Source: a virus. From it: 26,315 nt of DNA. Below the pieces are notes generated by a model. The model had not been told where the DNA came from, ran no database searches, and saw only the letters and a list, made by a program, of their open reading frames with translations. The DNA is taken from positions 1 through 26,315 of IMG/VR virus record IMGVR_UViG_3300020197_000139; one strand, given 5' to 3'. The position numbers and the translations under genes were made by a program. Positions within the stretch are counted from its first letter, which is position 1, and each line of letters opens with the position of its first letter. Positions 881-26,290 of this stretch are shown piece by piece.

Positions 881-2949
881 TATGCAAGTCCAAAGGGGGA
901 GACAGTTAAGTCCCATATAGTGTTTTGAACAGCAGGATTAAGGCTATTTACTAAAAACGGAGCATCATCAGTATATTGAGAAGTAATTCTATTTGTTAAC
1001 TTATACGTGTTGCTGTTTACAGTCATGCCAAATTCATAATATAAAGTATAGTCGTACGCCTTTGGTAAAACGTCACTGGTATCTTTTGGTCTAACCCAAT
1101 ACACTTTAAAAAAATCGGTGGCGTCGGTTTTTGATTTTGGTGCTTGACGACGCCAACCATTAGTTGTGCCTGGGTCAAGTGGATGAGGGGTGTAACTTTT
1201 ACCGTTTGCCATTTTTTTACCAACGGGAACCCACGTTCTCCAAGCAATAGACCAATTGTCAATTTCTTGAGAACTTAACGTTTTAATGTCTATTTCGTAT
1301 TTTTGCGGTGCTCGTTTATTAGAGGAATAAAGTATATACAATTTTGTTAATTCTAAATTAAACAAATGAAAAAAAGAATTATCTGGTAACGATGCTACTC
1401 GCTGAGTTCCAGTTGATTTTACTAAAGGATGTAAAAACCTAAAACTAACCATTAATGGCGTGTATGTATACAATGCGTCAGCCGATGGCACTTGAGTTTT
1501 TTGTACAAAGGCATCGCTGTCACCAGGATTTCCTCCCGCTTTTCCCAGCATGTTTCTTAGTTGACCTTCCAACACTTTTTCTTCCGCCATTTCTAAATAC
1601 GTTTTAGCAGTTGTTGGTGTAACGTTTATTTTAGTACCGTCCTCTATTTTGCTAAACGTGTTCCACCACTGACGCAACGTTATGTATCCTTGACTGTTTC
1701 CAGCATAACGCTCATTACTTCCATTAGTTTTTTCCCATGTGTTAGTTGGGGCCAGCACTTTTGTGTAGTCAGAATCTTGGTTAGGCATGTCTAAATTGTA
1801 ATAGTCACCCGATAATCCTCTGGCAGGCGGGTCGTCATTGGAATGATTCCACAACATTTGCACATGTGTAATATCTTTAACATATTTAAGCGCATCAATT
1901 TTTGATTGAGCACTACCTTGTGAAGATGGCGTGACAACTGACTTGTACCAATCTGCCAAACTGTCCGTTAAGAAAGCCTTACGCTTGGCAAATCCAAAAT
2001 ACAACGCCTGAACCGTGCAGTTAACTTGACAAATTGTTGGAATCATTTGATGGCTAAACTTTTGGAATGCCACGGCAGAACCAGTAACAAAACCCTCAAC
2101 CATAAACAAATCGCCAAACACAATACGAACAGGTAATGGATTAATAAACGCAGAGTTTCCAAAGTTCTTTTCGGACAATGTTTTTTTAAAAGCGGCTTCA
2201 CTAAATGGAGTGCCTTGAACAAATTGATTGTTCTGGTTTGCGTTGGTTCCTTGACCAGCCAACGACTGTTGAATTTCAGCAACTTTTGCATTAAACTTTG
2301 CAATGGTCTCTATAACATCTTGAGAAATACCTTGACCAATTATTTTGTCAAAAATAGAAAGGTCGTGCAGCACCCCAGAATATTGTGGGTTACTCAATTC
2401 CCCAAGCATTGACTGAGTTGTAAAATCGGCAGAACTAGAAAAAGTAAGGTCGTTTGCAGGAGCATTTTTAAATCTAAATTCCAAATCTCGGTCACGATTT
2501 GCAACTTCGTATTCACGATTAAAGGTCATTGTAAAATTAAATGAAGCCGTTCCTGGAACAGGCTGAGTCAGGTTTGCAGGGTTTTGCAGCAATGGGTTTA
2601 CCGCTCCCTGACTTTGCGCCACGTTACGTTCAATATATTCTGGATTAAATTGAAAGTTTAAACGCACATTACCAGTCCTTTTCGTTCCTAGAACCGTGTT
2701 ATTTCCGCCTGTGTCAAACAGAATACTTCGCATAAAACCACGTCGCATTTTTGACAACGGTCTAAATACGTCGTTTTTTCCTCCCATGTTTTTGTTAATA
2801 TGTGGAGGCTTACTACCAGGAAAAAAGAAGGGATGATTGGCCTTACCATCTTCTGGCTTACCCTGACTTTCTAAAAGTCTTCCATAATTAGGAAAATTGA
2901 CATTTTTTAAATCCTCGTAATCTTTACTGGTTGGGTTATAATTACTCAC
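880..2949 (-). CDS. Baseplate/tube-initiator protein, CIS-tube-like (689 aa)
   Basis: A large protein between the tape measure and LysM genes. Residues ~95-160 contain VRLNFQFNPEYIERNVA and then FNFTMTFNREYEV. Further on PVRIVFGDLFMVEGFVTG is followed by a segment ending VNCTVQALYFGFA. This pattern (F.FNP..I, F...F.RE, P.R..FG...F.GFV, then V...VQ) resembles the CIS-tube domain of Pvc7-type tube-initiator proteins of contractile injection systems and gp53/54-like phage baseplate proteins. In many relatives a LysM module is fused at the C-terminus; here it is a separate overlapping gene. The rest, about 350 residues, I cannot assign. The start is GTG at 2949, overlapping the tape measure stop (GTGA), with GAGGA upstream. 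The role is inferred from motif and order. Confidence 0.65.
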   Translation of the reverse strand: MSNYNPTSKDYEDLKNVNFPNYGRLLESQGKPEDGKANHPFFFPGSKPPHINKNMGGKNDVFRPLSKMRRGFMRSILFDTGGNNTVLGTKRTGNVRLNFQFNPEYIERNVAQSQGAVNPLLQNPANLTQPVPGTASFNFTMTFNREYEVANRDRDLEFRFKNAPANDLTFSSSADFTTQSMLGELSNPQYSGVLHDLSIFDKIIGQGISQDVIETIAKFNAKVAEIQQSLAGQGTNANQNNQFVQGTPFSEAAFKKTLSEKNFGNSAFINPLPVRIVFGDLFMVEGFVTGSAVAFQKFSHQMIPTICQVNCTVQALYFGFAKRKAFLTDSLADWYKSVVTPSSQGSAQSKIDALKYVKDITHVQMLWNHSNDDPPARGLSGDYYNLDMPNQDSDYTKVLAPTNTWEKTNGSNERYAGNSQGYITLRQWWNTFSKIEDGTKINVTPTTAKTYLEMAEEKVLEGQLRNMLGKAGGNPGDSDAFVQKTQVPSADALYTYTPLMVSFRFLHPLVKSTGTQRVASLPDNSFFHLFNLELTKLYILYSSNKRAPQKYEIDIKTLSSQEIDNWSIAWRTWVPVGKKMANGKSYTPHPLDPGTTNGWRRQAPKSKTDATDFFKVYWVRPKDTSDVLPKAYDYTLYYEFGMTVNSNTYKLTNRITSQYTDDAPFLVNSLNPAVQNTIWDLTVSPFGLA

Positions 2950-5813
2950 GATGTCCTCACATTCATCATTTTAACTTCACGTTCAATAAGTTTAGATACT
3001 TCTTTTGCTAACTTGGTGGCATCTATTGGGATAGAACCAGATGCCGTCATGTTAATTGTAGGATTAATATTAAACGTTGAATTGTTGGTTACCGCTTTCA
3101 TAGATGCGGAAGTTGTTGGTGATGTAGCCGATGTTGGCTTAGGGGAATAATCAAAAGGGTCACCAATAGTGGAGATTTTAGTACCTGGGCCTAAGTATTT
3201 TGACGGTAATTTGCCAACACCAGGCCAATTAACTTGTCCCTTAACAATTCCCTCATAACCATCATGTGCCATTACTGAATCAAGATGGTACTCCACTCCC
3301 AATCTTTGATTTGCTATCGTATCGTTTGCATGGTCAGCCCATTTTGAAGTATCGTAAGTTCTTCCGTGCAATCCTTTTTTATCAGTAGAAAGACCAGCAA
3401 GACCCTTTTTAATGCGATTCCAGTTGTAGTCGCTTATGTTAAAACCACCCCAAAACGTTCCGTGTGAATTAGTTGTTGATGGACCACCTACTTTATAATT
3501 TCCACCTGTTTCATTTTTAAGCAATGCGTCTATATCCGCAGCCTTAAAATCTTTAGGAACAAAATAACCCCAACCACCATATGCTGGAGTCGTTCTGTAG
3601 TAGAAGCCAGGAGGAATTTTACCAGGGCTGTATGCAACTTTATTTGGCGTTCCCGTATTTAATCCACCTCCAGCGCCTGCAAAATTACCTTCTGGACTAT
3701 TATCAAACATGATTACTTGTCGCTCTGCTGCAAAAGAGGCCATGGATTCAGCAATGGACAACTGCGATTTAATCGCCGTTGACAGTTCAATACCACTAGT
3801 CATCTGACCAGCAGTTTGACCATATGGACTTGTTTCCCTAGTTTCTCCAGTAGTTCCAGATTGATACCTACCAATACCACTTCGGTCAGTTCCCAGCGGC
3901 GCTCCGCCCTCCTCGTAATTTCTACGACTGGCAGGAATTACACTAGGCTGAACGTGCCAAGGCTCATCGTTACGTGAAAACTCATCAAGACCGTATTTAC
4001 TTGCATTTCTTTGCAACCACATTACATCTTCATTAGATGCAAAGTTAAGGTCTGCTGCCAAGCCAATTTCATGGTACGACAACCCTGGAGGGGCAGTCAT
4101 TGGTTCACCAGGTTTCTTTTCCCAATATGACCCTTCAAAATACGTGTTTGTTTTTCTGTCTGTTTTAACGTAACGTGACCTAAACAATGCGTCCTGTGTT
4201 TGCGGGCTTCGGTAAGCACCCCCTTTCATAATGGTGATTCCAGGGCGGTCTGTCATCAAACGCTCCAACGGCTCACGCAACGTTGGCTTTAGTTGTGACA
4301 AAAGAACGTTTTGATTTCCAGCACGAACTTTATTAGTTGGATTCCTAGCCTGAATACGTCCTGTTCCTGCACCTTCACCACCGTCACCAAGAACACCGCC
4401 AATAGCCATCAAGGGAATACCAATCTGCGGAAAGAATGGGGCCAAGCCCATTCCTAACATCTGTGTCATTTTGGCAATTGGGTTTCCACGTATTGAGGTG
4501 CGAGCACCAATAATGCTTGACAAAAAGTCTTCAAACTTCTCTAACGCCTTGTTGGTTGCTTGAAGGTTCTTTTCCATTTGTGCATAGTTGTCTGCCTGTC
4601 GTTTGTACATTTGTTCTTCACGACTTACTTCAGTGCGGGTAGTTTCTTCCTCTTGAGTTGCGTAGTTTCCTTCAATTCCCATTATGCTACGGTGTGTTTT
4701 ATTTGATGGGTCGTAGTAGCCCTGACCGCCACGTTCTTTAAATGAGATATTAGATTCTGCGTATTGAAGGAGCATGTCCTGCGCCCCCTCGTCCAATCCA
4801 GCCATTGACAAACGTTGGCGAAGAACCGACCCAGGCTGACGACCACCTTGGATTAATTCACGATTGTTCAAACCAAGCCGTTGAATAAGTTCTTGATTTA
4901 CCTGCATTGCCGACTTTTGTTGACCACCAATGCCGTAAAGACTTGTTCCCGTCATCATAAACATTCGGTTTACAGTGTCGGCCTGCGCCATGCTTTCAAT
5001 GTAATTAGTAACGTCTCCAGCACTTGCTGAATAGCCCGTCAATGCACGCAATGATTCCATAGAACCTGCCTGCATGCGTGCGTTCAAACCAGTACGAGAC
5101 TGCATTGCTAACAGTTCATTGATACCACCATACCCAAGTTTGTACTGTCGTAATGGGTCACGCAAATCACGTTGTACTTGTCCTTGGCTCATGTTGTATT
5201 GCTGTTGTAACACGACACTCAAACGGTCAGCAGGCAAAGCGTATTGTTTGTTTCTGTCTACACGGTTATCAATTTCTCTAATAGCCATTTGTAGAAATTC
5301 AAAACCCTTTGAGCCAGTAATCCTTTGTAAAGCATTACCACCACCAGCCGTTTTAGTACCACCACTTGCGGCTGCGGCTGCTGCTCCAAGTCCAGGAGGG
5401 CCTATTCCCAATTGAGCCAAAATAGCAACCGCATCGGCGGCTTCGGTGCTTATTCCAGAACCACCAGTTCCAGGAGGAGGCGCAGATGCCGCAGGGGGCA
5501 TACCTTTTGACGTGTCTATGTACCCAGAGGAATCAGCGGTACCACTCACTTTGCCCACAGCAGTGGCTGCTTTATTTAACTGGGTAGTAAGGTCCTTTGC
5601 TTCTTTAGTAAGGGCCTTAAACTTGTCTTTAATCTTTTTTACATTGCTGTCAAGTTTGGTAAGTTCTTCGTTAAGACCTTTTAGCATGGTCAAGTCAACG
5701 CTGAGTCGTGAGTTGACAACGGAGTTGCCCATGGCACTAGCCGCAGTGCCTTCAGCAGCACTATTGCCGCCAAGACCTCCTGTTGCTAAGTTAGGCTCGT
5801 TGTTGTCTACCAC
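2946..5813 (-). CDS. Tape measure protein with embedded M15 peptidase and second lytic-like domain (955 aa)
   Basis: The longest gene, directly after the tail chaperones, as expected for a tape measure protein that sets tail length and is ejected into the host. Residues ~40-90 form a K/E/L-rich coiled coil, ~125-165 are Ala/Gly-rich, and ~445-475 are hydrophobic. Residues ~525-625 form a peptidase M15 (D-Ala-D-Ala carboxypeptidase/VanY) domain: AYRSPQTQ, the zinc motif SYHEIGLAAD (H581, D588) and EPWH (E617, H620). Residues ~758-880 begin DIDALLKNETGGNY, which looks like the catalytic-Glu region (E768) of a transglycosylase or lysozyme; this second call is weaker. The start is GTG at 5813 with GGAGG seven bases upstream. 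The enzyme domains probably open peptidoglycan during DNA entry. Confidence 0.82.
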   Translation of the reverse strand: MVDNNEPNLATGGLGGNSAAEGTAASAMGNSVVNSRLSVDLTMLKGLNEELTKLDSNVKKIKDKFKALTKEAKDLTTQLNKAATAVGKVSGTADSSGYIDTSKGMPPAASAPPPGTGGSGISTEAADAVAILAQLGIGPPGLGAAAAAASGGTKTAGGGNALQRITGSKGFEFLQMAIREIDNRVDRNKQYALPADRLSVVLQQQYNMSQGQVQRDLRDPLRQYKLGYGGINELLAMQSRTGLNARMQAGSMESLRALTGYSASAGDVTNYIESMAQADTVNRMFMMTGTSLYGIGGQQKSAMQVNQELIQRLGLNNRELIQGGRQPGSVLRQRLSMAGLDEGAQDMLLQYAESNISFKERGGQGYYDPSNKTHRSIMGIEGNYATQEEETTRTEVSREEQMYKRQADNYAQMEKNLQATNKALEKFEDFLSSIIGARTSIRGNPIAKMTQMLGMGLAPFFPQIGIPLMAIGGVLGDGGEGAGTGRIQARNPTNKVRAGNQNVLLSQLKPTLREPLERLMTDRPGITIMKGGAYRSPQTQDALFRSRYVKTDRKTNTYFEGSYWEKKPGEPMTAPPGLSYHEIGLAADLNFASNEDVMWLQRNASKYGLDEFSRNDEPWHVQPSVIPASRRNYEEGGAPLGTDRSGIGRYQSGTTGETRETSPYGQTAGQMTSGIELSTAIKSQLSIAESMASFAAERQVIMFDNSPEGNFAGAGGGLNTGTPNKVAYSPGKIPPGFYYRTTPAYGGWGYFVPKDFKAADIDALLKNETGGNYKVGGPSTTNSHGTFWGGFNISDYNWNRIKKGLAGLSTDKKGLHGRTYDTSKWADHANDTIANQRLGVEYHLDSVMAHDGYEGIVKGQVNWPGVGKLPSKYLGPGTKISTIGDPFDYSPKPTSATSPTTSASMKAVTNNSTFNINPTINMTASGSIPIDATKLAKEVSKLIEREVKMMNVRTS

Positions 5814-12630: not shown

Positions 12631-12676
12631 TTACTTACCACCCAACCAACCCCAACTACCTGAACTATCGCTATCA
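12631..12676 (-). other. Possible frameshift extension of major capsid protein
   Basis: Directly at the capsid stop (TGA, 12676-12674) the +1 frame continues for 14 codons, DSDSSGSWGWLGGK, to a TAA at 12633-12631. The local reading is GGG TCC TCC TGA T. A +1 shift at GGG or at the final TCC would give a minor capsid form with a Gly/Trp-rich tail. The -1 frame is also open, for 27 codons to a TAG at 12596-12594. This ~90-base gap has no other gene. Recoding is a hypothesis only. Confidence 0.3.
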
Positions 12677-13762
12677 GGAGGACCCGATTGCGCCACCCTT
12701 GGTGTTGATAAGCACACGGCTCTCGTGCGTGATGACTCCGAAGCCCCAGATGGCATACCATGCCAAACCGTGCTCACGACCAAAGTCAATGACGCCACCG
12801 TCACGTAGTTCAACAGGAAGTGCGATTGCTTGACCGAAAGCGTTGTCACCAATCATGATGGCGCTGTACGAGTCGGCAGTCGGGTCTTGGACACCAGCGC
12901 TGCTGGGGTTCACGTCCACCGAACCGTTTGGTCCCTTGAGCACTTGCGTGGTCTCAATGAACACAACGTCGTAGAGGCGACCAATTTCACCCAGCATGAA
13001 GTTGCCAGGAGCAGCGTACTTGGTGACTTCAATGAACTCAGGCCAGTCACGGAGCGAGCGGCTCTGCGACGGGTGGACGAAGCACACGTAGGTGTCGCCC
13101 AAGCGAGGAATGTTTTGACCTGCCAAAATCTCAACTGCATCTTTGATGGTTGCAGGCGAGAGGTAGCCAGGGGCTGCCGCAGTGCCAGCGCCGCTGTACT
13201 CGTACGGGGCGATGGAACCACGGGTAGCACCGTTGGTCAGACGACCAAAGACCACGCTTGGCGGAACGGCTGAGCCGCCACCAAATGGGACTCCTGAAGC
13301 GTATAGCGTGTTACGTGCCTGAATGTCCATGGACTGTGCCATGTGACGACCAAGGAGACGTGAAGCCGACGCCATGACGTCATCAAACGCTGCGTTGAGC
13401 AACAGTTCAGTGACGGCTAGTGCGTTGCCTTGTTCCTTGACCGTAATTTGAATCTGCGAGGCAGACAGAGCGTTTGGCTCCAAGCGCACACCTTCAGTCA
13501 ATTCTGCGCCAACAGAAGCGTTGGTTGAAAGGTTGGTGTAACGCATGAAGTTTACGGTGAGACCAGGCATCACGCCAAGTTCGGTCTTTTTCACTGCGAA
13601 TTGTTCAAAACGCAGAACGGGCATTGCTTGGAACAAGATTTCCTTGCTCCAAATTACCTGAATTGCGGGTGACAGCGTGGCATCGGATGAGTAGCCAGTC
13701 GTCGTAATTGACGCTAGGTTTGCTCCCGTGATTGAACCACCTGCTGGTGCTGGAAGTGCCAT
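12674..13762 (-). CDS. Major capsid protein, N4-gp56 family-like (362 aa)
   Basis: Forms the icosahedral shell. The N-terminal segment IQVIWSKEILFQAMPVLRFE and the following GLTVNFMRYTNL, then LSASQIQITVKEQGNALAVT, fit the N4 gp56 major capsid family (HK97 fold), in which a 'w...i...a.p...f..f' start is followed by 'G.tv.f.r...l'. Length is normal for this family. GREHGLAWYAIWGFGVIT near the end is also typical. It follows the scaffold gene and has a strong GGAGG site ten bases upstream. Ala/Gly content and codon choice agree with high expression. I see no obvious maturation cleavage site; possible 3' recoding is listed separately. Confidence 0.88.
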   Translation of the reverse strand: MALPAPAGGSITGANLASITTTGYSSDATLSPAIQVIWSKEILFQAMPVLRFEQFAVKKTELGVMPGLTVNFMRYTNLSTNASVGAELTEGVRLEPNALSASQIQITVKEQGNALAVTELLLNAAFDDVMASASRLLGRHMAQSMDIQARNTLYASGVPFGGGSAVPPSVVFGRLTNGATRGSIAPYEYSGAGTAAAPGYLSPATIKDAVEILAGQNIPRLGDTYVCFVHPSQSRSLRDWPEFIEVTKYAAPGNFMLGEIGRLYDVVFIETTQVLKGPNGSVDVNPSSAGVQDPTADSYSAIMIGDNAFGQAIALPVELRDGGVIDFGREHGLAWYAIWGFGVITHESRVLINTKGGAIGSS

Positions 13763-13821: not shown

Positions 13822-14622
13822 TTAAAAACGTCCCCGTGAAGAACGTGCGTTCAAGAGTCTTTCACGCATTTTCTGATACTGTTCCATTGACATATTCCGA
13901 ATATCTTCGGCTGTTAACGTGTGCTGTTCCATCTGAGTTTCCATTGGCCCAACGGGTGGGGCTGTGACCCCCGCACCCTTTAAGCGACTTTGGGTCTCCG
14001 CCGTCGCCTTTTGAACATTTTCAAGAATAGCAGAACTAACGTCCTTGAACTTGTTAATCTGTGATTCAATCTCATCTTCACTTGAACCACTAACCAGATT
14101 AATAAGTTCAGGAATGATGTACTCTTGTTCTTCTTGCATGCGACGACCAATGTAATTTTGTAACTCTTGGTGGCGGCGCTCCTTCTCCAAAAGGGCAGCC
14201 TGTGCCTGACGGTCACGGTCAATTTCCTCAAGACGTGCCCTCCACTCCGCCTCAACCGTGTTGAGTTTTTGATTAAACTCAGTCTCTTGACGAAGGAGTA
14301 GTTCCTTAGCCGATAGTTCCTCAAATTCCTTTTCTTTAATAGCCTTGGCTTCCGCCTTTGCCCGCTTTTCCGCCTCTTTAAGGGCAGACTCACGTTCGTC
14401 TGACATGACCTTAAGTTGCTGTTCAAGGACTTTGACACGACTATCCGCATCATCAACTTTCTTGTACAACTTGTCCTTTTCCTGTTTACGAATGTTTTCC
14501 ACTTCGTCTTCAGTGAACGTTCGCTTTTGCGGCTGCTGACCAGTTACTTCAGCAGCCTCATTTTTGAATGCGTCAGTCGCCTCTACTGGAATGACGACTT
14601 CATCCTGTGCTTGCTTTGCCAT
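13822..14622 (-). CDS. Capsid scaffolding protein (266 aa)
   Basis: The protein is almost entirely a charged coiled coil. Residues ~35-165 are dense in K, E, Q and R (for example EDEVENIRKQEKDKLYKKVD). A short Gly/Pro hinge (GAGVTAPPVGPMETQ) and a C-terminal helix with MSMEQYQKMRERLL ending ARSSRGRF follow. The layout of long helix, flexible hinge and small basic C-terminal helix that binds the capsid is that of phage scaffolds, and it lies between portal and major capsid genes. It would guide shell assembly and then leave or be degraded. It is a candidate substrate for the proteasome-like peptidase, but that is inference. Confidence 0.85.
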   Translation of the reverse strand: MAKQAQDEVVIPVEATDAFKNEAAEVTGQQPQKRTFTEDEVENIRKQEKDKLYKKVDDADSRVKVLEQQLKVMSDERESALKEAEKRAKAEAKAIKEKEFEELSAKELLLRQETEFNQKLNTVEAEWRARLEEIDRDRQAQAALLEKERRHQELQNYIGRRMQEEQEYIIPELINLVSGSSEDEIESQINKFKDVSSAILENVQKATAETQSRLKGAGVTAPPVGPMETQMEQHTLTAEDIRNMSMEQYQKMRERLLNARSSRGRF

Positions 14623-14672: not shown

Positions 14673-16355
14673 TTATTCTTCACTAGGATTACGACGCTGG
14701 GCCAACCTTGCGCCATAAGCCCTACTAACCAATTGATTCATCAGTTCTGATTCTACAGGGCCGACAGCCGTTCCAGGCATGCCCGCTCCAGAATCTCCCG
14801 TAGATGACACGCCAGGACCACCTGCCGATGTCGTTGCGGGTCCCTCACCCCCTGGCGCCATGCCCGTTGTGAGCATAATCGCCATTTGGATTTGAGAATT
14901 AAGCATGGTCAACGCACCTTGGTCAATAGCATCGTCCATGAGTTCTTCAAAGATTTCTTCCATCTTTTCGTTCGGGAACTCCTCGCCAAGGGTACGCAAG
15001 GCGCCCCGTTTGGACTCCAAACCAAGACCCATCTTTGCTTGCACCTCGTTGAGTTTGATAAGCACGTCAACGGGAAGGGGTTCAGGCCAATGAATAGTAG
15101 TTTTGTAAGTAATGGGGTCTGTTGGGTCTAATTGAGTTAAATGGTCACGTTCTGGACGGGCTGCCCGCATCGGGTTGTATACAAGCATTTCTGGTCGGAA
15201 GATAGCAGCAGTACGAATGATAAGTTCGTTAGTGCGCTCAAGTCCTTTTGTGAAGTGCGTTTTCTTCATTGAGTAACGATTCATCAACGGCTGGTACTGT
15301 ATAGCCAAAGCCACACCGCTGGTATTTGAAACAGGCTGAAATTGTCCCAATGCTGCTTCTGGAATGCCCGTAATTTCATGCATCGTTCGCTTCAAGAACT
15401 GAATGTATTCCAGCGCCCCAGCCATTTCTCCACGAGATTCAAGGTTGAATACTTGTGCATCCTTGGGCAAACCTGCCCAAACTTTCTTAGGACCACGCTC
15501 AAGTTGACTTGCTTTAGCACCAGTAATAATGGTGACAGGAGCAGCGTGATAATTAATAATGTCAGATACTTCCGTCATTTTTTCGTTAAGTTCACGATTC
15601 AACGGAATGATGTCCCAAACGTCCGATTGTCCCCAAGGCGACGATGAAATGCTCACATTGGGAATATGCACAATTGGAATTGAACCGATGGCATTGGGGT
15701 ATTCATCAATCAATTCGTCATTGATGAACTGCTGTACCATCTCATCAGACAAGATTTCTGTAAAGGTGTAGACCTGTCGTGTCCCCTCAGCAGACGTTCC
15801 CCAGAAACGATATTTAAGTTTAAACCTTAACAATCTGTCACGGTCATGCGGATGGTATTCAGGAAAGCAGTGTGCTGGGTTAAGTGGAATGATACGAATA
15901 CGGCCCTCGTGAGGGACGCCAACGCTGTCTACAAATGGTTCTTCATAAGCAACCTTAATAAAGCAGTCCCCAGTTACACCTGCCAATTGCCCCATTTCCC
16001 ACAACACTTTGTGCTTGTTGTTGTGACCGTTCCAAACGTCATCTAACAAGTGGGGAATGATGGCAGTGTTTTGTTCAGGACACTTAAACTGAACACCCTT
16101 ACCAAAACAAAAGTTAGTAATGTAATCCGCCATTGTGCGAACGTAGTTGAGATAAAAGGCAGACTCGCCCATCTCACGTCGGTACGCCCAGTGATGACCC
16201 AAGTACCACGCCCATGCCGATGAGTAGCGGTTCAAACGTGGACCATGAACCTCAAACTCTTCATCAGCAAGTTCCACCAACCCCAATGGGCTGATGGCTA
16301 CCGTCAGGTCACTGGCGGCGGCACGATAGGATGGTGACCAAAAGTCAATTGCCAT
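14673..16355 (-). CDS. Portal protein (560 aa)
   Basis: The dodecameric ring through which DNA enters and leaves the head. The sequence shows portal-like features: an N-terminal region with MADYITNFCFGKGVQFKCPE, a strand series around GDCFIKVAYEEPF and RIIPLNPAHCFPEY, and the central segment FQPVSNTSGVALAIQYQPLM followed by a long 'stem' helix. This matches the SPP1 gp6/phage portal fold. The C-terminal ~60 residues are Gly/Ala/Pro-rich and flexible. Length is typical (about 450-600). The gene is seven bases after a small membrane protein gene and has only a weak ribosome site, so coupling is probable. Confidence 0.88.
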   Translation of the reverse strand: MAIDFWSPSYRAAASDLTVAISPLGLVELADEEFEVHGPRLNRYSSAWAWYLGHHWAYRREMGESAFYLNYVRTMADYITNFCFGKGVQFKCPEQNTAIIPHLLDDVWNGHNNKHKVLWEMGQLAGVTGDCFIKVAYEEPFVDSVGVPHEGRIRIIPLNPAHCFPEYHPHDRDRLLRFKLKYRFWGTSAEGTRQVYTFTEILSDEMVQQFINDELIDEYPNAIGSIPIVHIPNVSISSSPWGQSDVWDIIPLNRELNEKMTEVSDIINYHAAPVTIITGAKASQLERGPKKVWAGLPKDAQVFNLESRGEMAGALEYIQFLKRTMHEITGIPEAALGQFQPVSNTSGVALAIQYQPLMNRYSMKKTHFTKGLERTNELIIRTAAIFRPEMLVYNPMRAARPERDHLTQLDPTDPITYKTTIHWPEPLPVDVLIKLNEVQAKMGLGLESKRGALRTLGEEFPNEKMEEIFEELMDDAIDQGALTMLNSQIQMAIMLTTGMAPGGEGPATTSAGGPGVSSTGDSGAGMPGTAVGPVESELMNQLVSRAYGARLAQRRNPSEE

Positions 16356-16362
16356 TTATTAA

Positions 16363-16668
16363 TTACTTCTTTTTTCTCTTAGAAGCGGCCTTTTTAACAG
16401 CAGGAATCTGTGCAACTGAGGTTGGTTGGGCAACAGTTTCCTTGACGGCTGCTTCAACAACTTTGCTTTGGTTAACAAAGAAGTTTGCGACGGTGGGGTC
16501 TCCAACCCACGTACTTGCGGCATTGAGCAAGTACAGAAGGATAGGAAGGACCACGATGTTAAGAGCAGGGTCAAGTTCCCAAAAAGCAAGCAGATAGGAA
16601 ACAATTCCCGCTGCTCCACCCTTGGTTGCGACGTCGGCTAGTGCTGCTACTTTTAATTTATTTGACAT
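16363..16668 (-). CDS. Small membrane protein, possible holin (101 aa)
   Basis: Residues ~15-55 contain two closely spaced hydrophobic stretches (GGAAGIVSYLLAF and LNIVVLPILLYLLNAA). A polar linker follows and the C-terminus is strongly basic (KKAASKRKKK). This layout (two membrane segments, short loop, basic tail) is common in holins, and holins form the membrane lesion that frees the endolysin. However, two other holin-like genes sit beside the endolysin, so this one may instead be a membrane-bound assembly protein or an antiholin. An AGGAG site precedes the ATG. Confidence 0.45.
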   Translation of the reverse strand: MSNKLKVAALADVATKGGAAGIVSYLLAFWELDPALNIVVLPILLYLLNAASTWVGDPTVANFFVNQSKVVEAAVKETVAQPTSVAQIPAVKKAASKRKKK

Positions 16669-16695: not shown

Positions 16696-17322
16696 TTATA
16701 CCGCTTTACGTCGTTTTGTGCCAATTTTCTGTCCTTGCACAAACGCTTGATACGGTGCGCCAGTACCAGGGTCGTATTTTGAAGAAACAGCCAACGCACG
16801 TAAAGCAAGGCTTTTTGCTTGTTGAGAATTGAGTTTTTTGTTACGAACTAATACTGACATAGCGCCCAGAGCAAATGACGACCCGCTTCCCAACGAATAT
16901 AGTCCAGATGCTTCTGATGACCACGAATAATCGGACTCAACTACGTATATTTGAGAATTAATAGCAACAATAATTGATGACCCCTGTTCGGCAATGTGTT
17001 CCTTGTCCTCACGTTCAGGAACCGAATATCCCTGAGAATCAAAGCATTCCCGCAAAGACGGCACAAACTTTGACGTAAAGAATTGGTCTAACTTTCTACT
17101 ACGAAGGTTTTGTGGAGGGGTGGGTGGTTGGAAGACGTGGTGCAGAATGTTGATAGCACGAACGTCTCCAGCGGCACCAATGATGTAATTTCCGTTTTGT
17201 GCCAGTTTTCCAGAACCTTCCCGCAGCGTTCCTATATGGGAAGAATCATCACTCGTTGTGACACGGGAGTCAGCGCAGATTACCGCAAACTCATCTCCTT
17301 GAATACCAACAATGGTTGTCAT
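16696..17322 (-). CDS. Proteasome beta / HslV-like Ntn-hydrolase peptidase (208 aa)
   Basis: A threonine peptidase of family T1. After removal of Met1, Thr2 becomes the N-terminal nucleophile (MTTIVGI), as in HslV, so no propeptide is needed. D18 in CADSR matches Asp17 of the 20S beta subunit. K39 in GSGKL matches Lys33, after a five-residue insertion. GAAGD (49-53) follows. LGSGS (144-148) matches the Gly-Ser-Gly motif holding Ser129, and KYDPGTG (D184) matches the Asp166 region. All catalytic positions are thus present. Length fits one beta-type subunit; no alpha subunit or ATPase is seen nearby. It follows the phosphoesterase stop by two bases without a Shine-Dalgarno site. Role in head maturation, or in host protein breakdown, is unknown. 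Confidence 0.87.
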   Translation of the reverse strand: MTTIVGIQGDEFAVICADSRVTTSDDSSHIGTLREGSGKLAQNGNYIIGAAGDVRAINILHHVFQPPTPPQNLRSRKLDQFFTSKFVPSLRECFDSQGYSVPEREDKEHIAEQGSSIIVAINSQIYVVESDYSWSSEASGLYSLGSGSSFALGAMSVLVRNKKLNSQQAKSLALRALAVSSKYDPGTGAPYQAFVQGQKIGTKRRKAV

Positions 17323-17324
17323 GG

Positions 17325-18476
17325 TCAGTTAGCAACAAACTCGGTACCTCGGTACATGCCCCATCCATTGTAAATTGGCACCACTTCGTACGAAAACTTG
17401 TGGTCTCCACTGTCTTCATATGTGACAATTCCTATTCCTTGTTGCCAATTTTCGTACCGAACAATTGGACGTCCGTCAAGGTCCACACCACTTTTTGTAG
17501 ACGGTACAACACCGTCAATGCGAGCAAGACAGCCAGGGGAAGCAGCCATAATAGTGCGAGGACCATCAAAGTCCTCACGAGTTTTAAACGCAGTTTCAAT
17601 GCGGTGGATATGTCCATAGATGACGCTTGTCTTTTCGTTGTTCAAATAAATGTGAGCCGTTGAACCAGAAGACTTCACACGGTCACCGTGAATAATTCTA
17701 AGTTTCTCGTTAATCCAATAATCGGACGCAGGATAGCCAGGGCGATATTCCACCTTGTAATCATCCATACGACACAGATAAGGGACAGTGAGAACGGGCC
17801 ACGATTGCGGCATATTTCCTTTGCGTAAACCATACGCTGCTACGGCGTTGTTAAGAAGATACTTTGGCATGCGCTCTTCATGGTTGCCCGCAAGCCAAGA
17901 AATCTTTGCGTACGGTGCAGCGTCACGAAGTTCGGCACATAGTAAAGAAGCCCTGTCTATTGCCGCCTGTGTGGTTTTTTGATACGCAGGAGTGGTTAGG
18001 TACTTGCCCATTTCAGGAAGGTCAAGGTTGTCACCAACACAAATAACGACATTTGGTTCTACGTAACGAATCAAATCAAGGACGATTTTGATTGCACTCT
18101 CGTCGTGAGTAGGTTCTAAAGCACCATCATGACCACGGTAGTAGCCAATCTGTGCATCTGGAATCACTACGCATTTTTTGAACTTTGATTTTTTCAACGC
18201 TCGTGTTTTTTTGACTGGCAGTTTTATTGCAGGACCTTGTTGAATTACAGGCCATTTTGGACCACTGTCCCATGTTGGAGAAAATTGAATTGCAGCAAGG
18301 TCGTGTATTTCTGCTTCACCTTCTTCATTCTTTGTTAACGACTGATAAATGGAAACACGGCTGACGTCACCAATATCGGCAATGTCTATGTTCTTTCGTT
18401 TGAGCAAGTCAAGCAAATCGCCCAACACTTTTTCACGATTTTCTGGTTCGTTCAAGTCATTCTTCAGATTGGTCAC
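17325..18476 (-). CDS. Calcineurin-like metallophosphoesterase (383 aa)
   Basis: Binuclear-metal phosphoesterase motifs occur in order: VVIPDAQIG (D107), VICVGDNLDLP (G148-D152), WLAGNHEER (197-200), RIIHGDRV (H263) and IYGHIHRI (H289, H291). The first motif is D-x-Q in place of the usual D-x-H, a variant I associate with some phage enzymes. Residues ~1-100 precede the catalytic domain and include DIADIGDVSRVSIYQSL, which could be a helix-turn-helix, so DNA-related activity is possible. Substrate (nucleotide, nucleic acid or phosphoprotein) cannot be told. The start is GTG at 18476 with AAGGAG seven bases upstream, inside the 3' end of the HTH gene (20-base overlap). Confidence 0.85.
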   Translation of the reverse strand: MTNLKNDLNEPENREKVLGDLLDLLKRKNIDIADIGDVSRVSIYQSLTKNEEGEAEIHDLAAIQFSPTWDSGPKWPVIQQGPAIKLPVKKTRALKKSKFKKCVVIPDAQIGYYRGHDGALEPTHDESAIKIVLDLIRYVEPNVVICVGDNLDLPEMGKYLTTPAYQKTTQAAIDRASLLCAELRDAAPYAKISWLAGNHEERMPKYLLNNAVAAYGLRKGNMPQSWPVLTVPYLCRMDDYKVEYRPGYPASDYWINEKLRIIHGDRVKSSGSTAHIYLNNEKTSVIYGHIHRIETAFKTREDFDGPRTIMAASPGCLARIDGVVPSTKSGVDLDGRPIVRYENWQQGIGIVTYEDSGDHKFSYEVVPIYNGWGMYRGTEFVAN

Positions 18477-18765: not shown

Positions 18766-19572
18766 TTACGCAATGAGGGCATCCCATGTGCGTTGATTAC
18801 AAATACCATTGATTTGTAGACTAGCAGCCTTTTTAAAGTAATTGAGGGCTTTTTCAGTAGCGGGACCAAAATCTCCATCCGTAATACAAGCAAAGCCTTT
18901 TTTAGTAAGCAACTCCTGCATTTGTTTTACTTTGTCGCCTTTGTCGCCTAGTTTCAATTTCAAACCACCGTCGTCTTTTTCAACAGCAACGACAGTGGCA
19001 GCAGCCTTGCCTTCTGGAGCCTTAATTCCATTTTTATCCATGTATGCTTTAACAGCAGTAGGAACTTCATCACCGCATACATAGCGCAGATGCCACGGTT
19101 CCTCTGGGACGACTTCCCAACTAAAACCAAATGTCTTAACGTTGTCAATGAGCCACTTAAGACGCCTTGTTTCAGCAGCAGTATGAACGTCAACCGCCAA
19201 TCCGCTATTGTGCTGCGAAGTCCCAGGAGCCGCAAGGCTGGCAAGTTTGGGGTCTTTCTTGTACCACTTAACACCTTCAAACGTCCTTGTTGCATTGCCG
19301 TTTGGCTCTTTGGTATAACGTTGTTTGAACGCCGCAAGTTGTGACTCGTATGTGCGGTACGTGTCTCCTGCCGAAACGGGCTTTAATTCAACGCCGTCTG
19401 CCCCAGCCTTTTCAACCATCGCAGCCCACGCTGCTGCGGCAAGCCAGTGTAGTTTCCCACCACCAGCGGCGGGGCGAAGTAAGTGCTCAGGCAACCTACC
19501 AGGCTGTACGCCCTTCAAGTCAGCAGGCATCTTTACTGGAACAACGTAGTCCCAATCAACTTTTTTGGACAT
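18766..19572 (-). CDS. Endolysin: M15 (VanY-type) peptidase plus PG-binding domain (268 aa)
   Basis: Cuts peptidoglycan stem peptides at lysis. The catalytic domain (~residues 25-170) has TYRTYESQ, the zinc motif SQHNSGLAVD (H121, D128) and PEEPWHLRY (E158, H161). The C-terminal ~60 residues form a PG_binding_1 domain: LGDKGDKVKQMQELLTKKGF, then DGDFGPATEKALNYFKK and RTWDALIA. An Ala-rich linker joins them. No signal peptide is seen, so export depends on a holin. The frame is open 11 codons upstream (ATG at 19605), but the ATG at 19572 has AGGA eight bases before it and is preferred. The same peptidase fold recurs in the tape measure protein. Confidence 0.92.
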   Translation of the reverse strand: MSKKVDWDYVVPVKMPADLKGVQPGRLPEHLLRPAAGGGKLHWLAAAAWAAMVEKAGADGVELKPVSAGDTYRTYESQLAAFKQRYTKEPNGNATRTFEGVKWYKKDPKLASLAAPGTSQHNSGLAVDVHTAAETRRLKWLIDNVKTFGFSWEVVPEEPWHLRYVCGDEVPTAVKAYMDKNGIKAPEGKAAATVVAVEKDDGGLKLKLGDKGDKVKQMQELLTKKGFACITDGDFGPATEKALNYFKKAASLQINGICNQRTWDALIA

Positions 19573-19667
19573 GTTTAATTTCCTAATCCTCGTACTTAAT
19601 TTCATATCATCTATTTTTTCGTCGTGTTTTTAAACTGACTGCCTAAAGTCATTCTTCAACAACCTTT

Positions 19668-24031: not shown

Positions 24032-24289
24032 TTACTCTGCTTCCTCAACTGTCGGTGCGACGAATACATCGTTCACCGCATCATAGGTGTCACCGATAAG
24101 TGCGTACTTAGAACGGAAGTTGTGGTTGTACGAAGTTTGTCGCCACTCGCCTGCTAGTCCGAGCGATGCGAGAAACGCCTGACCGATAGGTTCACTCTCA
24201 GGGAAGTCGCCGCCGCCGCAGTCACTATTGTTCACCACATTCACGGTGACGACGATGTTGTGTTCATCTAGTTGAGCGAAGTGTGCCAT
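24032..24289 (-). CDS. Small fibre-associated protein, copy 2 (85 aa)
   Basis: Begins MAHFAQLDEHNIVVTVNVV and includes EWRQTSYNHNFRSKYALIGD, a pattern that I associate with small proteins encoded beside tail fibres in many environmental phages ('W.qTSYn.nFR..yA.iG..Yd...d.F'). The end, TYDAVNDVFVAP plus an acidic tail, is shared with the 65-aa protein at 25194-25391, including a 38-bp identical DNA stretch. The frame is open to a GTG at 24301, but the ATG at 24289 fits the family N-terminus and is chosen. Role unknown; a fibre chaperone or tip component is plausible. Confidence 0.65.
   Translation of the reverse strand: MAHFAQLDEHNIVVTVNVVNNSDCGGGDFPESEPIGQAFLASLGLAGEWRQTSYNHNFRSKYALIGDTYDAVNDVFVAPTVEEAE
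24053..24090. repeat. 38-bp exact direct repeat, copy A
   Basis: This stretch is identical base for base to 25215-25252. It encodes the shared TYDAVNDVFVAP end of two small fibre-associated genes. The copies lie 1,162 bp apart, in the same orientation, one in each fibre cassette. Identity beyond protein constraint suggests recent duplication or gene conversion. Confidence 0.9.
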
Positions 24290-24291
24290 AC

Positions 24292-25197
24292 CTACTGCCA
24301 CCTTATGTAAACGATGCCTGAGCCGCCAGACTTACCATTACCACCACCGCCACCGCCTGTGTCAGCACCACCGCCACCGCCCGTGTTTGCCGTGCCGTTC
24401 ACGCCCGTTCCCAATGATGTTGCCCCATTACCACCCCCACCTTTCAGCGCAGTCGTAGAACTATTCCCACCAAGACCGCCGTTGCCACCGCCACCGCCAC
24501 CGCCGACCGTGTTCGTGCCTGTTGCGTTGCCGATGAAGTTGCTAATGTCTCTCGCCGCACCGCCGTTTCTCGTTGATGATGCGCCTGCGTTTCCTGCCGC
24601 ACCACCACCACCGCCTGCGTAAGACCCGTTTCCGTCTTGACCGTCGTATCCATAAGGCTTAGTTCCGTAGCCACCACGCTTGATGTTGCCCGTCGCTGTG
24701 CCACCACCACCCGAACCCATACTTGACATTCCCCAAGTTGCGTTGTTCGGTGGTGAGCCGAAGTCGCTATCACCAATACCACCGCCGCCACCACCGCCGC
24801 CGACGAGCAAATACTTACTGAATGTTGTTGAGTCGCCAACCGATGAACTTGAACCACCACCATTACCGCCACCTGCGCCAACAGCAATCGTGTATGTTCC
24901 CGCAACGAGCCATTGGATAGTGCGGATTACCGCACCAGCACCCCCACCACCGAACTGTATTGAATTGTTGCCGCCGAGATTACCGCCGCCGCCACCTACG
25001 ACGAGCAACTCAAACAAACCATCAGAAGTCACGACGAACGAACCGTTGCCTGTGTAGGTCGCAAGGTTGTAAGTCTTGCTGTCGCTGGGGTCGGTTATTG
25101 ACGACGAAGTAGAACTGCTCTCGCCCCAAGTTTGTATACCTGCAGGAATCGTGTCCGTTGTCTGCGATGACACATAGCCGAGATAAGAACGAGTCAT
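24292..25197 (-). CDS. Glycine-rich tail fibre/adhesin-like protein, copy 2 (301 aa)
   Basis: An N-terminal domain of ~65 residues (MTRSYLGYVSSQTTDTIPAG, ending SDGLFELLVVGG) is followed by about 220 residues with long runs of glycine split by Ser, Asn, Ala and Thr, and a closing GSGIVYIRWQ. This is the glycine-rich repeat domain of phage tail fibres and adhesins, where poly-Gly II helices can form a sandwich with variable loops that bind receptors (as known for T-even gp38). It resembles the 300-aa protein upstream in plan and in both ends. Its ATG has GAGGAGGA before it and overlaps the previous stop (ATGA). GC content is locally high because of Gly codons. Confidence 0.75.
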   Translation of the reverse strand: MTRSYLGYVSSQTTDTIPAGIQTWGESSSTSSSITDPSDSKTYNLATYTGNGSFVVTSDGLFELLVVGGGGGNLGGNNSIQFGGGGAGAVIRTIQWLVAGTYTIAVGAGGGNGGGSSSSVGDSTTFSKYLLVGGGGGGGGIGDSDFGSPPNNATWGMSSMGSGGGGTATGNIKRGGYGTKPYGYDGQDGNGSYAGGGGGAAGNAGASSTRNGGAARDISNFIGNATGTNTVGGGGGGGNGGLGGNSSTTALKGGGGNGATSLGTGVNGTANTGGGGGADTGGGGGGNGKSGGSGIVYIRWQ

Positions 25198-25391
25198 TCC
25201 TCCTCCTCAATCGGCGGTGCGACGAATACATCGTTCACCGCATCATAGGTGTATCCGATGCCAACCGTCAGCGGGTCGCCACCCAAGTCGTGCCAATCAC
25301 CGTCAAGGTTCGCTGTTGCCCAAGCATAATCAGAGACAATGATGTTTATTATTACTTGGTCTTTCACCTCAGCGCAATAGTTCTTGCTCAT
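25194..25391 (-). CDS. Small fibre-associated protein, copy 1 (65 aa)
   Basis: MSKNYCAEVKDQVIINIIVS opens the protein, followed by WATANLDGDWHDLGGDP and the shared end TYDAVNDVFVAP with an acidic tail (PIEEEE). It overlaps both glycine-rich genes by ATGA on each side, so the three are translated as a unit. It is shorter than the related protein at 24032-24289 and lacks the W.QTSY..NFR segment, with only the C-terminal third clearly related. Function unknown. Confidence 0.65.
   Translation of the reverse strand: MSKNYCAEVKDQVIINIIVSDYAWATANLDGDWHDLGGDPLTVGIGYTYDAVNDVFVAPPIEEEE
25215..25252. repeat. 38-bp exact direct repeat, copy B
   Basis: Identical to 24053-24090 in the same orientation, inside the 3' half of the first small fibre-associated gene. 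It marks the end of cassette 1 as copy A marks the end of cassette 2. Confidence 0.9.
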
Positions 25392-26290
25392 ACCTTGAAC
25401 CTCACATACACAATCCCATCAGCACCATCGCCGCCAGAGGAGTTTCCATTCGTTCCGCCGCCGCCTGAGCCTTTGGTGGTCGCAGAATTTCCCGTACCGC
25501 TCGTCTTGCCTGCTACTCCGCCTGTTGCCGCTGCGCCGCCATAACCCGTTGCTCCACCGCCACCACCTGTACAGATGATTGTCGTGTTAGCAACCTGACC
25601 TAGCCACGCAGAGATGTCAACCCCTGCTCCGCCTGTGCCACCTGTGTTACCCGATGCGTTGCCGCCGACACCACCGCAACCGCCACCTCCACCGCAAGCG
25701 GGACAAGAAATTTGCATCTCCATGACAGCACTATCGCCACCGTCATTACCGTTAGCGCCACCTCCCCTACCTCTGTAGAGACCTCCACCGCCTGCCCCAC
25801 TACCACCACTCATGTTTTGCCACGCCTTGTGGAATTGGATTGTCTGTATGTCTGAGCGTGTTGACAAACCTCCACCGCCACCACCACCCTGCGCACTAAT
25901 GATGGAGCCGAACGAACTCTTACCACCTCTGGATGCCACCGAACCACCGATTCCCTGTGCGCCGATAGTCACTGTTTGGTTTGCGTCAATGTAAACGGTG
26001 GCGTTCTGCCCGTTGAAGTCACCTGAGCCACCACCACCGCCAGCGCCACCATTTGGGTCTCCACCGCCAGCGCCGCCGCCACCACCAACGACAATCACAT
26101 CAAACAAGCCAGCCTTCGTCACCGTCAAAGTGCCTGATGAAGTGAAGGTGAGGAGCGTGTAGTTCACGGCTGGTGAACCGACGCTGATGCTTGACGATGT
26201 GCCGCCTGTTGCTACGCCGTAGCCCTGCACATTGACGGTCTGCGTCGTCAGTGACGACACATACCCAAGTTGGCGGCGAGCCGTAGCCAT
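25388..26290 (-). CDS. Glycine-rich tail fibre/adhesin-like protein, copy 1 (300 aa)
   Basis: The same plan as the gene at 24292-25197. An N-terminal domain contains LGYVSSLTTQTVNVQGYGVA and ends KAGLFDVIVVGG. A long Gly-rich body follows, interrupted by CPACGGGGGCGG (three cysteines, perhaps metal-binding or disulphide) and ATGYGGAAATGG. The close is GIVYVRFKV. It is probably a receptor-binding fibre component. The two paralogues share both ends but differ within the Gly-rich loops, which would be the binding surface. The ATG is three bases after the likely stop of the gene before it; there is no strong ribosome site. Confidence 0.75.
   Translation of the reverse strand: MATARRQLGYVSSLTTQTVNVQGYGVATGGTSSSISVGSPAVNYTLLTFTSSGTLTVTKAGLFDVIVVGGGGGAGGGDPNGGAGGGGGSGDFNGQNATVYIDANQTVTIGAQGIGGSVASRGGKSSFGSIISAQGGGGGGGLSTRSDIQTIQFHKAWQNMSGGSGAGGGGLYRGRGGGANGNDGGDSAVMEMQISCPACGGGGGCGGVGGNASGNTGGTGGAGVDISAWLGQVANTTIICTGGGGGATGYGGAAATGGVAGKTSGTGNSATTKGSGGGGTNGNSSGGDGADGIVYVRFKV

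Follow-up and report, generated by a model that had tools for sequence, protein, structure and literature searches.

What does a proteasome-type peptidase do when it is carried by a virus and encoded beside the genes that build the viral head? We study this question in a 26,315-nucleotide stretch of viral DNA (IMG/VR record IMGVR_UViG_3300020197_000139, hereafter the window), a 26-kb virus record that may itself be a fragment. The gene of interest lies at 16696..17322 on the minus strand and encodes a T1-type (proteasome-fold) peptidase of 208 aa, identified from homology, conserved residues and an AlphaFold2 model. A first-pass annotation, made from the sequence alone, had read it as a proteasome beta/HslV-type enzyme with an intact catalytic set, and had proposed that it either matures the head by acting on scaffold or capsid, or joins host alpha subunits to redirect protein breakdown. 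We find that the open reading frame is real, with exactly these coordinates and on the minus strand, that the family assignment holds, and that the peptidase does lie beside head genes in a virus of actinophage kinship. The proposed roles fare less well, and on balance we favour a different one: an accessory, probably ATP-independent, BPH-like self-compartmentalising actinophage peptidase that serves a narrow substrate set.

The family assignment can be read from profile scores. The translation begins MTTIVG and has no propeptide beyond Met1, and the Pfam Proteasome family (PF00227) matches the whole protein at 33.4 bits against a gathering score of 22.4 (E 4.6e-8); when the search is run genome-wise, the match falls into two pieces of 17.3 and 15.8 bits, each separately below 22.4. 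Among PHROGs the protein matches phrog_1040, 'peptidase HslV family', at E 3.7e-22. A single-sequence search of solved structures puts BPH on top (5ovs at E 5.1e-5 and 5ovu at E 2.9e-4, with the rest above 0.3), and an 11-row profile returns BPH (5.8e-5) and HslV (8.1e-5) practically tied. Filing the protein as an HslV is rejected by the curated scores, 23.6 of 137 and 21.9 of 157.75 bits, as is filing it as a bacterial 20S beta subunit (PrcB), for which TIGR03690 gives 19.2 bits vs a curated 191.9; the NCBIfam archaeal beta model, too, is matched far below its curated cut-off. By profile score, by its N-terminal threonine with equivalents of Asp17 and Lys33, and by its sandwich fold, the protein is a proteasome-fold T1 peptidase, or Ntn-hydrolase.

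The catalytic residues are encoded, all on the minus strand, by the Thr2 codon (17317..17319; Thr1 of the mature protein), the Asp18 codon (17269..17271; T1-family Asp17), the Lys39 codon (17206..17208; T1-family Lys33), the Ser146 codon within a GSG (16885..16887), which we take to be T1-family Ser129, and the Asp184..Thr187 codons (16762..16773), presumably T1-family Asp166..Ser169. Thr2, Asp18, Lys39, G145-S146-G147-S148 and Asp184 all sit where the first-pass annotation had put them. Across 44 homologues, which are what remains of 102 proteins made non-redundant at 95% identity, T2, D18, K39, G145, G147, D184 and T187 are invariant (44/44). The serines of the GSGS motif described earlier vary: position 146 has S in 23 homologues and T in 21, and position 148 may be S (31), A (10) or G (3). 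The glycine of the oxyanion hole, Gly49, is retained by 42 of the 44. In matching T2, D18, K39 and G49 to T1, D17, K33 and G47 of the proteasome, we follow the numbering in excerpts of PMC8665760. Finally, of 946 homologue pairs, the 94 with dS < 2 have a median dN/dS of 0.13, and by this measure the peptidase is under purifying selection.

The AlphaFold2 monomer model, built from the 44-row alignment, has a mean pLDDT of 85.3 and a pTM of 0.82. It has a helix at 75-96, in the place of H2, and pLDDT is low in the acidic H2-S7 'pore loop' that comes after it (residues 97-115; 16978..17034, minus strand), which contains EREDKEHIAEQ. The best solved match of the model is BPH, with which it shares 21% identity and superposes over 178 residues at 2.7 A (Z 20.4). 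Z scores between 18 and 20 follow for archaeal 20S, HslV and mycobacterial PrcB. Fold matches in the PDB at E <= 0.001 number 1214 chains, the best 50 of which are all T1-type proteins. Public libraries already contain phage proteins of this fold, as 36 predicted viral structures are matched at E <= 1e-3. Within the loop, EREDKEHIAE (residues 103-112) is aligned with the corresponding acidic pore loop in BPH, at the EDKED segment of Td-BPH; in the BPH paper as excerpted (PMC5777263), that loop lies between H2 and S7 and is suggested to serve substrate recognition in a protease with no known unfoldase.

How widespread is the gene? A scan of IMG/VR with the single sequence returns 33 relatives among 44 pattern-matching stretches, and a scan with the alignment returns at least 581 confirmed relatives among at least 599 such stretches; the family is large. 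In GenBank phages, tblastn matches 14 records at 23-49% identity. The nearest homologue, at 48.7%, belongs to the metagenome-assembled Actinomycetia phage DSL-LC01 (HslV and protease do not occur in the available main text of its paper, PMC10611076), and others belong to Caudovirales ct2KA10, Microbacterium phage Pumpernickel and Psychrobacter phage D'Alembert. The distant homologue in Pumpernickel, a cultured actinophage, is gp135 (L122, 4001-4540) and adjoins ThyX and tRNA genes; another distant homologue is found on a Streptomyces plasmid (L125, 2001-2543). A pattern scan of genome contigs yields one relative (L038) among 28 pattern-matching stretches, on a contig assigned to a Gammaproteobacteria MAG (JAURLY010000091.1) that encodes an endolysin and a WhiB-type regulator besides the peptidase; given the WhiB-type gene, this is probably a misbinned actinophage contig. 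When 299 genomes of the same phylum are searched with a profile, 12 match, one of them the genome of L038 and the other 11 weak (best 1.6e-7). Read by eye, these weak matches are BPH-like (L110, L111) or HslV-like (L115-L117, L119, L120), with L112-L114 and L118 left out. The phylogenetic comparison with HslV that had been suggested at the outset was made here with BPH added: in a rough tree, whose labels BPH, HslV and 'PPHlike' were assigned by eye, the phage family falls among other phage proteins and one plasmid protein, apart from both BPH and HslV (97/94), on long branches and with an unsettled bootstrap.

The neighbourhood of the gene in the window, all on the minus strand, is as follows. 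Upstream lies a calcineurin-like metallophosphoesterase (17325..18476; Pfam and PHROG matches), whose stop codon and the ATG of the peptidase are 2 nt apart, so that the two are likely translated together. Downstream come a small membrane-like ORF (16363..16668), recognised by reading the sequence, with no match among PHROGs and not present in all relatives; an SPP1 Gp6-like portal protein (14673..16355; Pfam and PHROG matches); a scaffold-like coiled-coil protein (13822..14622), which over 259 aa shares 29% identity with the protein annotated as scaffold in phage LuckySocke; and the major capsid protein (12674..13762), identified by Pfam and PHROG matches, its capsid kin and an alignment. The scaffold gene is therefore three genes downstream of the peptidase, not two as first described. 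Elsewhere in the window, residues ~529-630 of a tape-measure-like protein (2946-5813, 955 aa) match PHROG 16823, as does the VanY-type endolysin at 18766-19605, and tblastn with the tape-measure protein finds the endolysin region in relatives (identity about 29-40%). Neighbouring genes at 24292-25197 and 25388-26290 each encode a glycine-rich protein of ~300 aa, the former matching phrog_2295, a family of unknown function.

Phages of the window's lineage keep regularly to this order: phosphoesterase, peptidase, (small membrane-like ORF), portal, scaffold, capsid. Of the loci gathered through the peptidase, 101 in all, 77 of 91 testable ones have the phosphoesterase next to it and 69 of 88 testable ones have a portal at most 2 kb downstream; this sample took the best 80 of at least 581 confirmed stretches, leans towards the window's own lineage and includes several overlapping or near-identical contigs. 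That the place before the portal is so regular might point to a late role, linked to the virion, in window-lineage phages. Other lineages place the gene differently. A second set, mostly of larger phages, usually has it after a conserved gene group that includes SSB and regulator matches, and 7 of its records, compared with the capsid family of the window, give 6 weak matches and one with none. A third set mostly has it after the phosphoesterase (in L098 a different gene stands there) and ahead of WhiB-like and leftward replication-type genes. The peptidase tree needs 7 changes to account for four context groups, against a minimum possible of 3; the gene does not sort neatly by context, which is consistent with movement between phages.

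Which host do these phages infect? Streptomyces phages of the BRock/LuckySocke type are kin by capsid protein (60% identity, 60-62% for LuckySocke) and by terminase (46%), the phosphoesterase is closest to genes of Clavibacter and Microbacterium phages, and WhiB regulators lie near relatives of the peptidase in two other lineages. The DSL-LC01 paper, in its available text, describes such WhiB genes (apparently the same) as exclusive to actinobacteria and their phages (PMC10611076). On this evidence, the host of the window phage is likely an actinobacterium.

We now turn to the role in the head. That the peptidase cleaves scaffold or capsid during prohead expansion is suggested by its closeness to portal and scaffold in the window lineage, and also by what is missing around it. 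The claim that the window has no classic prohead protease is borne out, in that none is found among 29 distinct window proteins compared with PHROGs (ORFs 3-638, 24032-24301 and 25388-26290 excluded), and Peptidase_S78 occurs in only one of 18 related records, DSL-LC01, being absent from the other 17. Searches for the T4-type prohead protease (PF03420) and capsid (PF07068) give no match in related records or in the controls, and so both are uninformative. Against this reading stands the distribution of the gene in close relatives. Sister loci were collected by the portal protein, so that presence of the peptidase was not assumed; the best 80 of 482 were taken, a sample that again leans towards the window's own lineage and has several overlapping or near-identical contigs in it. 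A locus counts as testable when it reaches at least 2 kb upstream of the portal, as 65 of the 80 do; among the 15 that are too short, 4 have the peptidase and 11 do not. In the 65 testable loci the peptidase is present in 35 and missing in 30, and the gene-less loci have the same head block: the portal matches in 30/30, the phosphoesterase in 28/30 (not L188 and L194), and scaffold and capsid wherever the locus reaches them. The BRock-type phages have the block as well, with the peptidase in 0 of 43 testable loci (60 loci, 17 too short); LuckySocke, for example, has the same terminase-portal-scaffold-capsid block and neither a peptidase at the profile level nor an S78 protease.

Local absence does not amount to absence from the genome where a record is a fragment. 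In whole-record searches no peptidase was found in 10 gene-less sister records (22-94 kb) or in 13 BRock-type records (101-113 kb), profile A3 giving zero matches across these 23; as positive controls, profile A2 found the peptidase in 17 of 18 records and A3, used locally, in 39 loci. On a portal tree of 42 representatives (21 with and 21 without the gene, from the 65 testable loci after an ungapped 97% identity cut), presence and absence need 4 changes, at least 3 of which are forced by well-supported branches. The slot itself is variable: in the 13 of 30 gene-less loci that were inspected it holds a membrane-like ORF, other small ORFs, a larger insert (L188) or no listed ORF. A protein of ~98-140 aa with the patterns W-x-D-A and I-P-x-[GE]-M-[VI] recurs in these slots, whose small genes include L140 4319-4615, L144 4322-4618, L161 4589-5011, L166 4049-4348 and L190 4702-4998; the slot of L166 has a further 216-aa ORF at 4345-4995. 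The peptidase is an optional accessory gene in these phages.

The capsid proteins tell a similar story. Those of eight gene-bearing phages and of the gene-less LuckySocke can be aligned along their whole length, with six N-terminal and a few C-terminal residues missing in LuckySocke and with differing internal loops, which gives no indication of a pro-domain that could be cleaved off. DSL-LC01 provides weaker support. It carries the peptidase and, ~27 kb away, an ORF annotated as a capsid maturation protease, which scores 23.0 bits on Peptidase_S78 against a cut-off of 21 and matches the head maturation protease family phrog_18402 at E 1.4e-58. The same ORF matches the portal family phrog_859 better (E 2e-99), so a classic head protease in this phage is probable, not certain; of two other ORFs annotated likewise, one matches a family of unknown function and one has no match. 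Moreover, 19 of the 88 testable peptidase loci have no portal nearby, and the maturation of scaffold-type SPP1-like heads is generally taken to involve no proteolysis. Between them, the gene-less sisters with the same head block, the portal tree and the colinear capsids lead us to reject head maturation as the general function, and a head protease is a very unlikely explanation of this gene, even though the enzyme could have a virion role in some of the phages that bear it.

What, then, might the peptidase do? According to the reading that we favour, of an accessory BPH-like peptidase, removal of Met1 would leave Thr2 as the N-terminal nucleophile, helped by Asp18, Lys39, Ser146, Asp184 and Thr187. 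The subunits are predicted to form a closed stack of homo-oligomeric rings whose acidic pore loop is flexible, and the predicted activity would be cleavage of a narrow set of unfolded or small proteins, putatively host or infection-stage substrates, in the infected cell of what is predicted to be an actinobacterium. This would proceed without a dedicated AAA+ unfoldase, and with regard to this predicted ATP independence we find HslU over its curated cut-off in 0 of 17 records searched, which may be fragments; weak matches below the cut-off, in 4 of the 17, extend over roughly the first 83 positions and no further. Within the lineage of the window, the gene occupies the variable slot between phosphoesterase and portal and is, on this reading, dispensable for head assembly. 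The closest functional model is BPH, a homo-oligomeric double ring with inner active sites and without an alpha ring or known AAA+ partner; in excerpts of PMC5777263, the purified protein was inactive on standard substrates, yet bound proteasome inhibitors. In terms of sequence BPH does not look like a clear winner, being tied with HslV in the profile search and with the phage family apart from both in the tree. The optional status, the variable slot and the purifying selection fit an accessory infection-fitness gene, perhaps one aimed at one host protein.

This last thought can be sharpened: the protease might serve counter-defence or host takeover by attacking a single, specific host target, be it a defence protein, a toxin or a regulator. 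Such a role would sit well with an accessory gene that was gained or lost at least three times on the portal tree, with a slot that relatives fill with other small ORFs, and with purifying selection on the peptidase. No neighbour was identified as an anti-defence gene, however, nor was a link to a defence system found, and the idea overlaps our preferred explanation, being a narrower version of the accessory BPH-like peptidase; taken by itself we regard it as doubtful. With similar reserve, we note that lake actinophages might carry as exchangeable cargo a mini-proteasome that stands alone, needs no ATP and destroys a single, specific host protein (defence, toxin, regulator), which, if true, would be a proteasome-type counter-defence or take-over weapon. 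A departure from proteolysis altogether is also conceivable: the superfamily, in excerpts of PMC8665760, includes the monomeric ligase connectase, and the long pore loop may give narrow specificity, so that the protein might be a non-proteolytic Ntn-hydrolase, an amide-bond ligase or a specific processing enzyme. The signature element of connectase is, in the same excerpts, an insertion between strands 3 and 4, whereas the strand list of our model has no large insertion there. Since, in addition, the nearest folds are the BPH, HslV and 20S peptidases and Asp184, Thr187 and Ser/Thr146 are conserved, we consider a connectase-like role quite improbable.

Actinobacteria commonly carry 20S proteasomes, and M. 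tuberculosis PrcB matches the model at Z 18.9, which together lend some appeal to the other early proposal, namely that the phage protein assembles with host 20S alpha subunits and redirects host proteolysis. But the sequence is far from PrcB, with the 20S beta score far below its cut-off as given above, and BPH-type proteins work without an alpha ring in the available text of PMC5777263. For these two reasons co-assembly looks unlikely, indeed extremely so.

How does the accessory BPH-like peptidase compare with systems already described? The phrog_1040 proteins and the tblastn matches are phage-encoded like it, the latter at 23-49% identity. Most phage homologues in the tree are 171-180 aa long compared with 208 aa here, the DSL-LC01 protein has 229 aa, and a Vibrio homologue is longer still and was cut to 220 for the tree. 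The window peptidase, unlike the other phage homologues, carries the long acidic loop, and it keeps the Asp184..Thr187 pair that the D'Alembert homologue lacks. Fuchs, Alva and Lupas (2021; PMC8665760, excerpts) described PPH and AAH, proteasome-like homologues in phages. Like these, our peptidase is Group I proteasome-like, phage-carried and, in that account, of a kind with no AAA+ partner known. PPH has about 140 residues and no helix H2 in the same source, whereas the window peptidase is 208 residues long and forms a helix (75-96) where H2 would lie, and it is therefore not a PPH as defined. The authors report, in the excerpted text, having found no Actinobacteria-specific phage encoding an AAH, a gap that the present family may fill.

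Elsewhere in print, a phage BPH homologue is named in an excerpt of PMC8953757 with no test attached, and HslV is mentioned in part of a Salmonella jumbo phage paper (PMC7823757); our literature search found no study of function for phage proteasome homologues or for this family. Phage proteasome homologues have been in print since 2021 (PMC8665760), and what is new here is an abundant family for which head maturation is excluded as the general role. The comparison shows that one obvious role is not the general function of the peptidase, and closely matched phages with and without the gene make the question of its function testable.

HslV shares the fold and the catalytic residues with the window peptidase, but has a short linker (PMC5777263, as excerpted) where the phage protein has its long acidic pore loop. 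BPH, from Thiobacillus and Cupriavidus (5ovs, 5ovt, 5ovu), is the closest solved structure, and both proteins have an acidic EDKE-type pore loop between H2 and S7; they differ in that BPH is bacterial and chromosomal whereas the window peptidase, about 20% identical to it, is borne by a phage.
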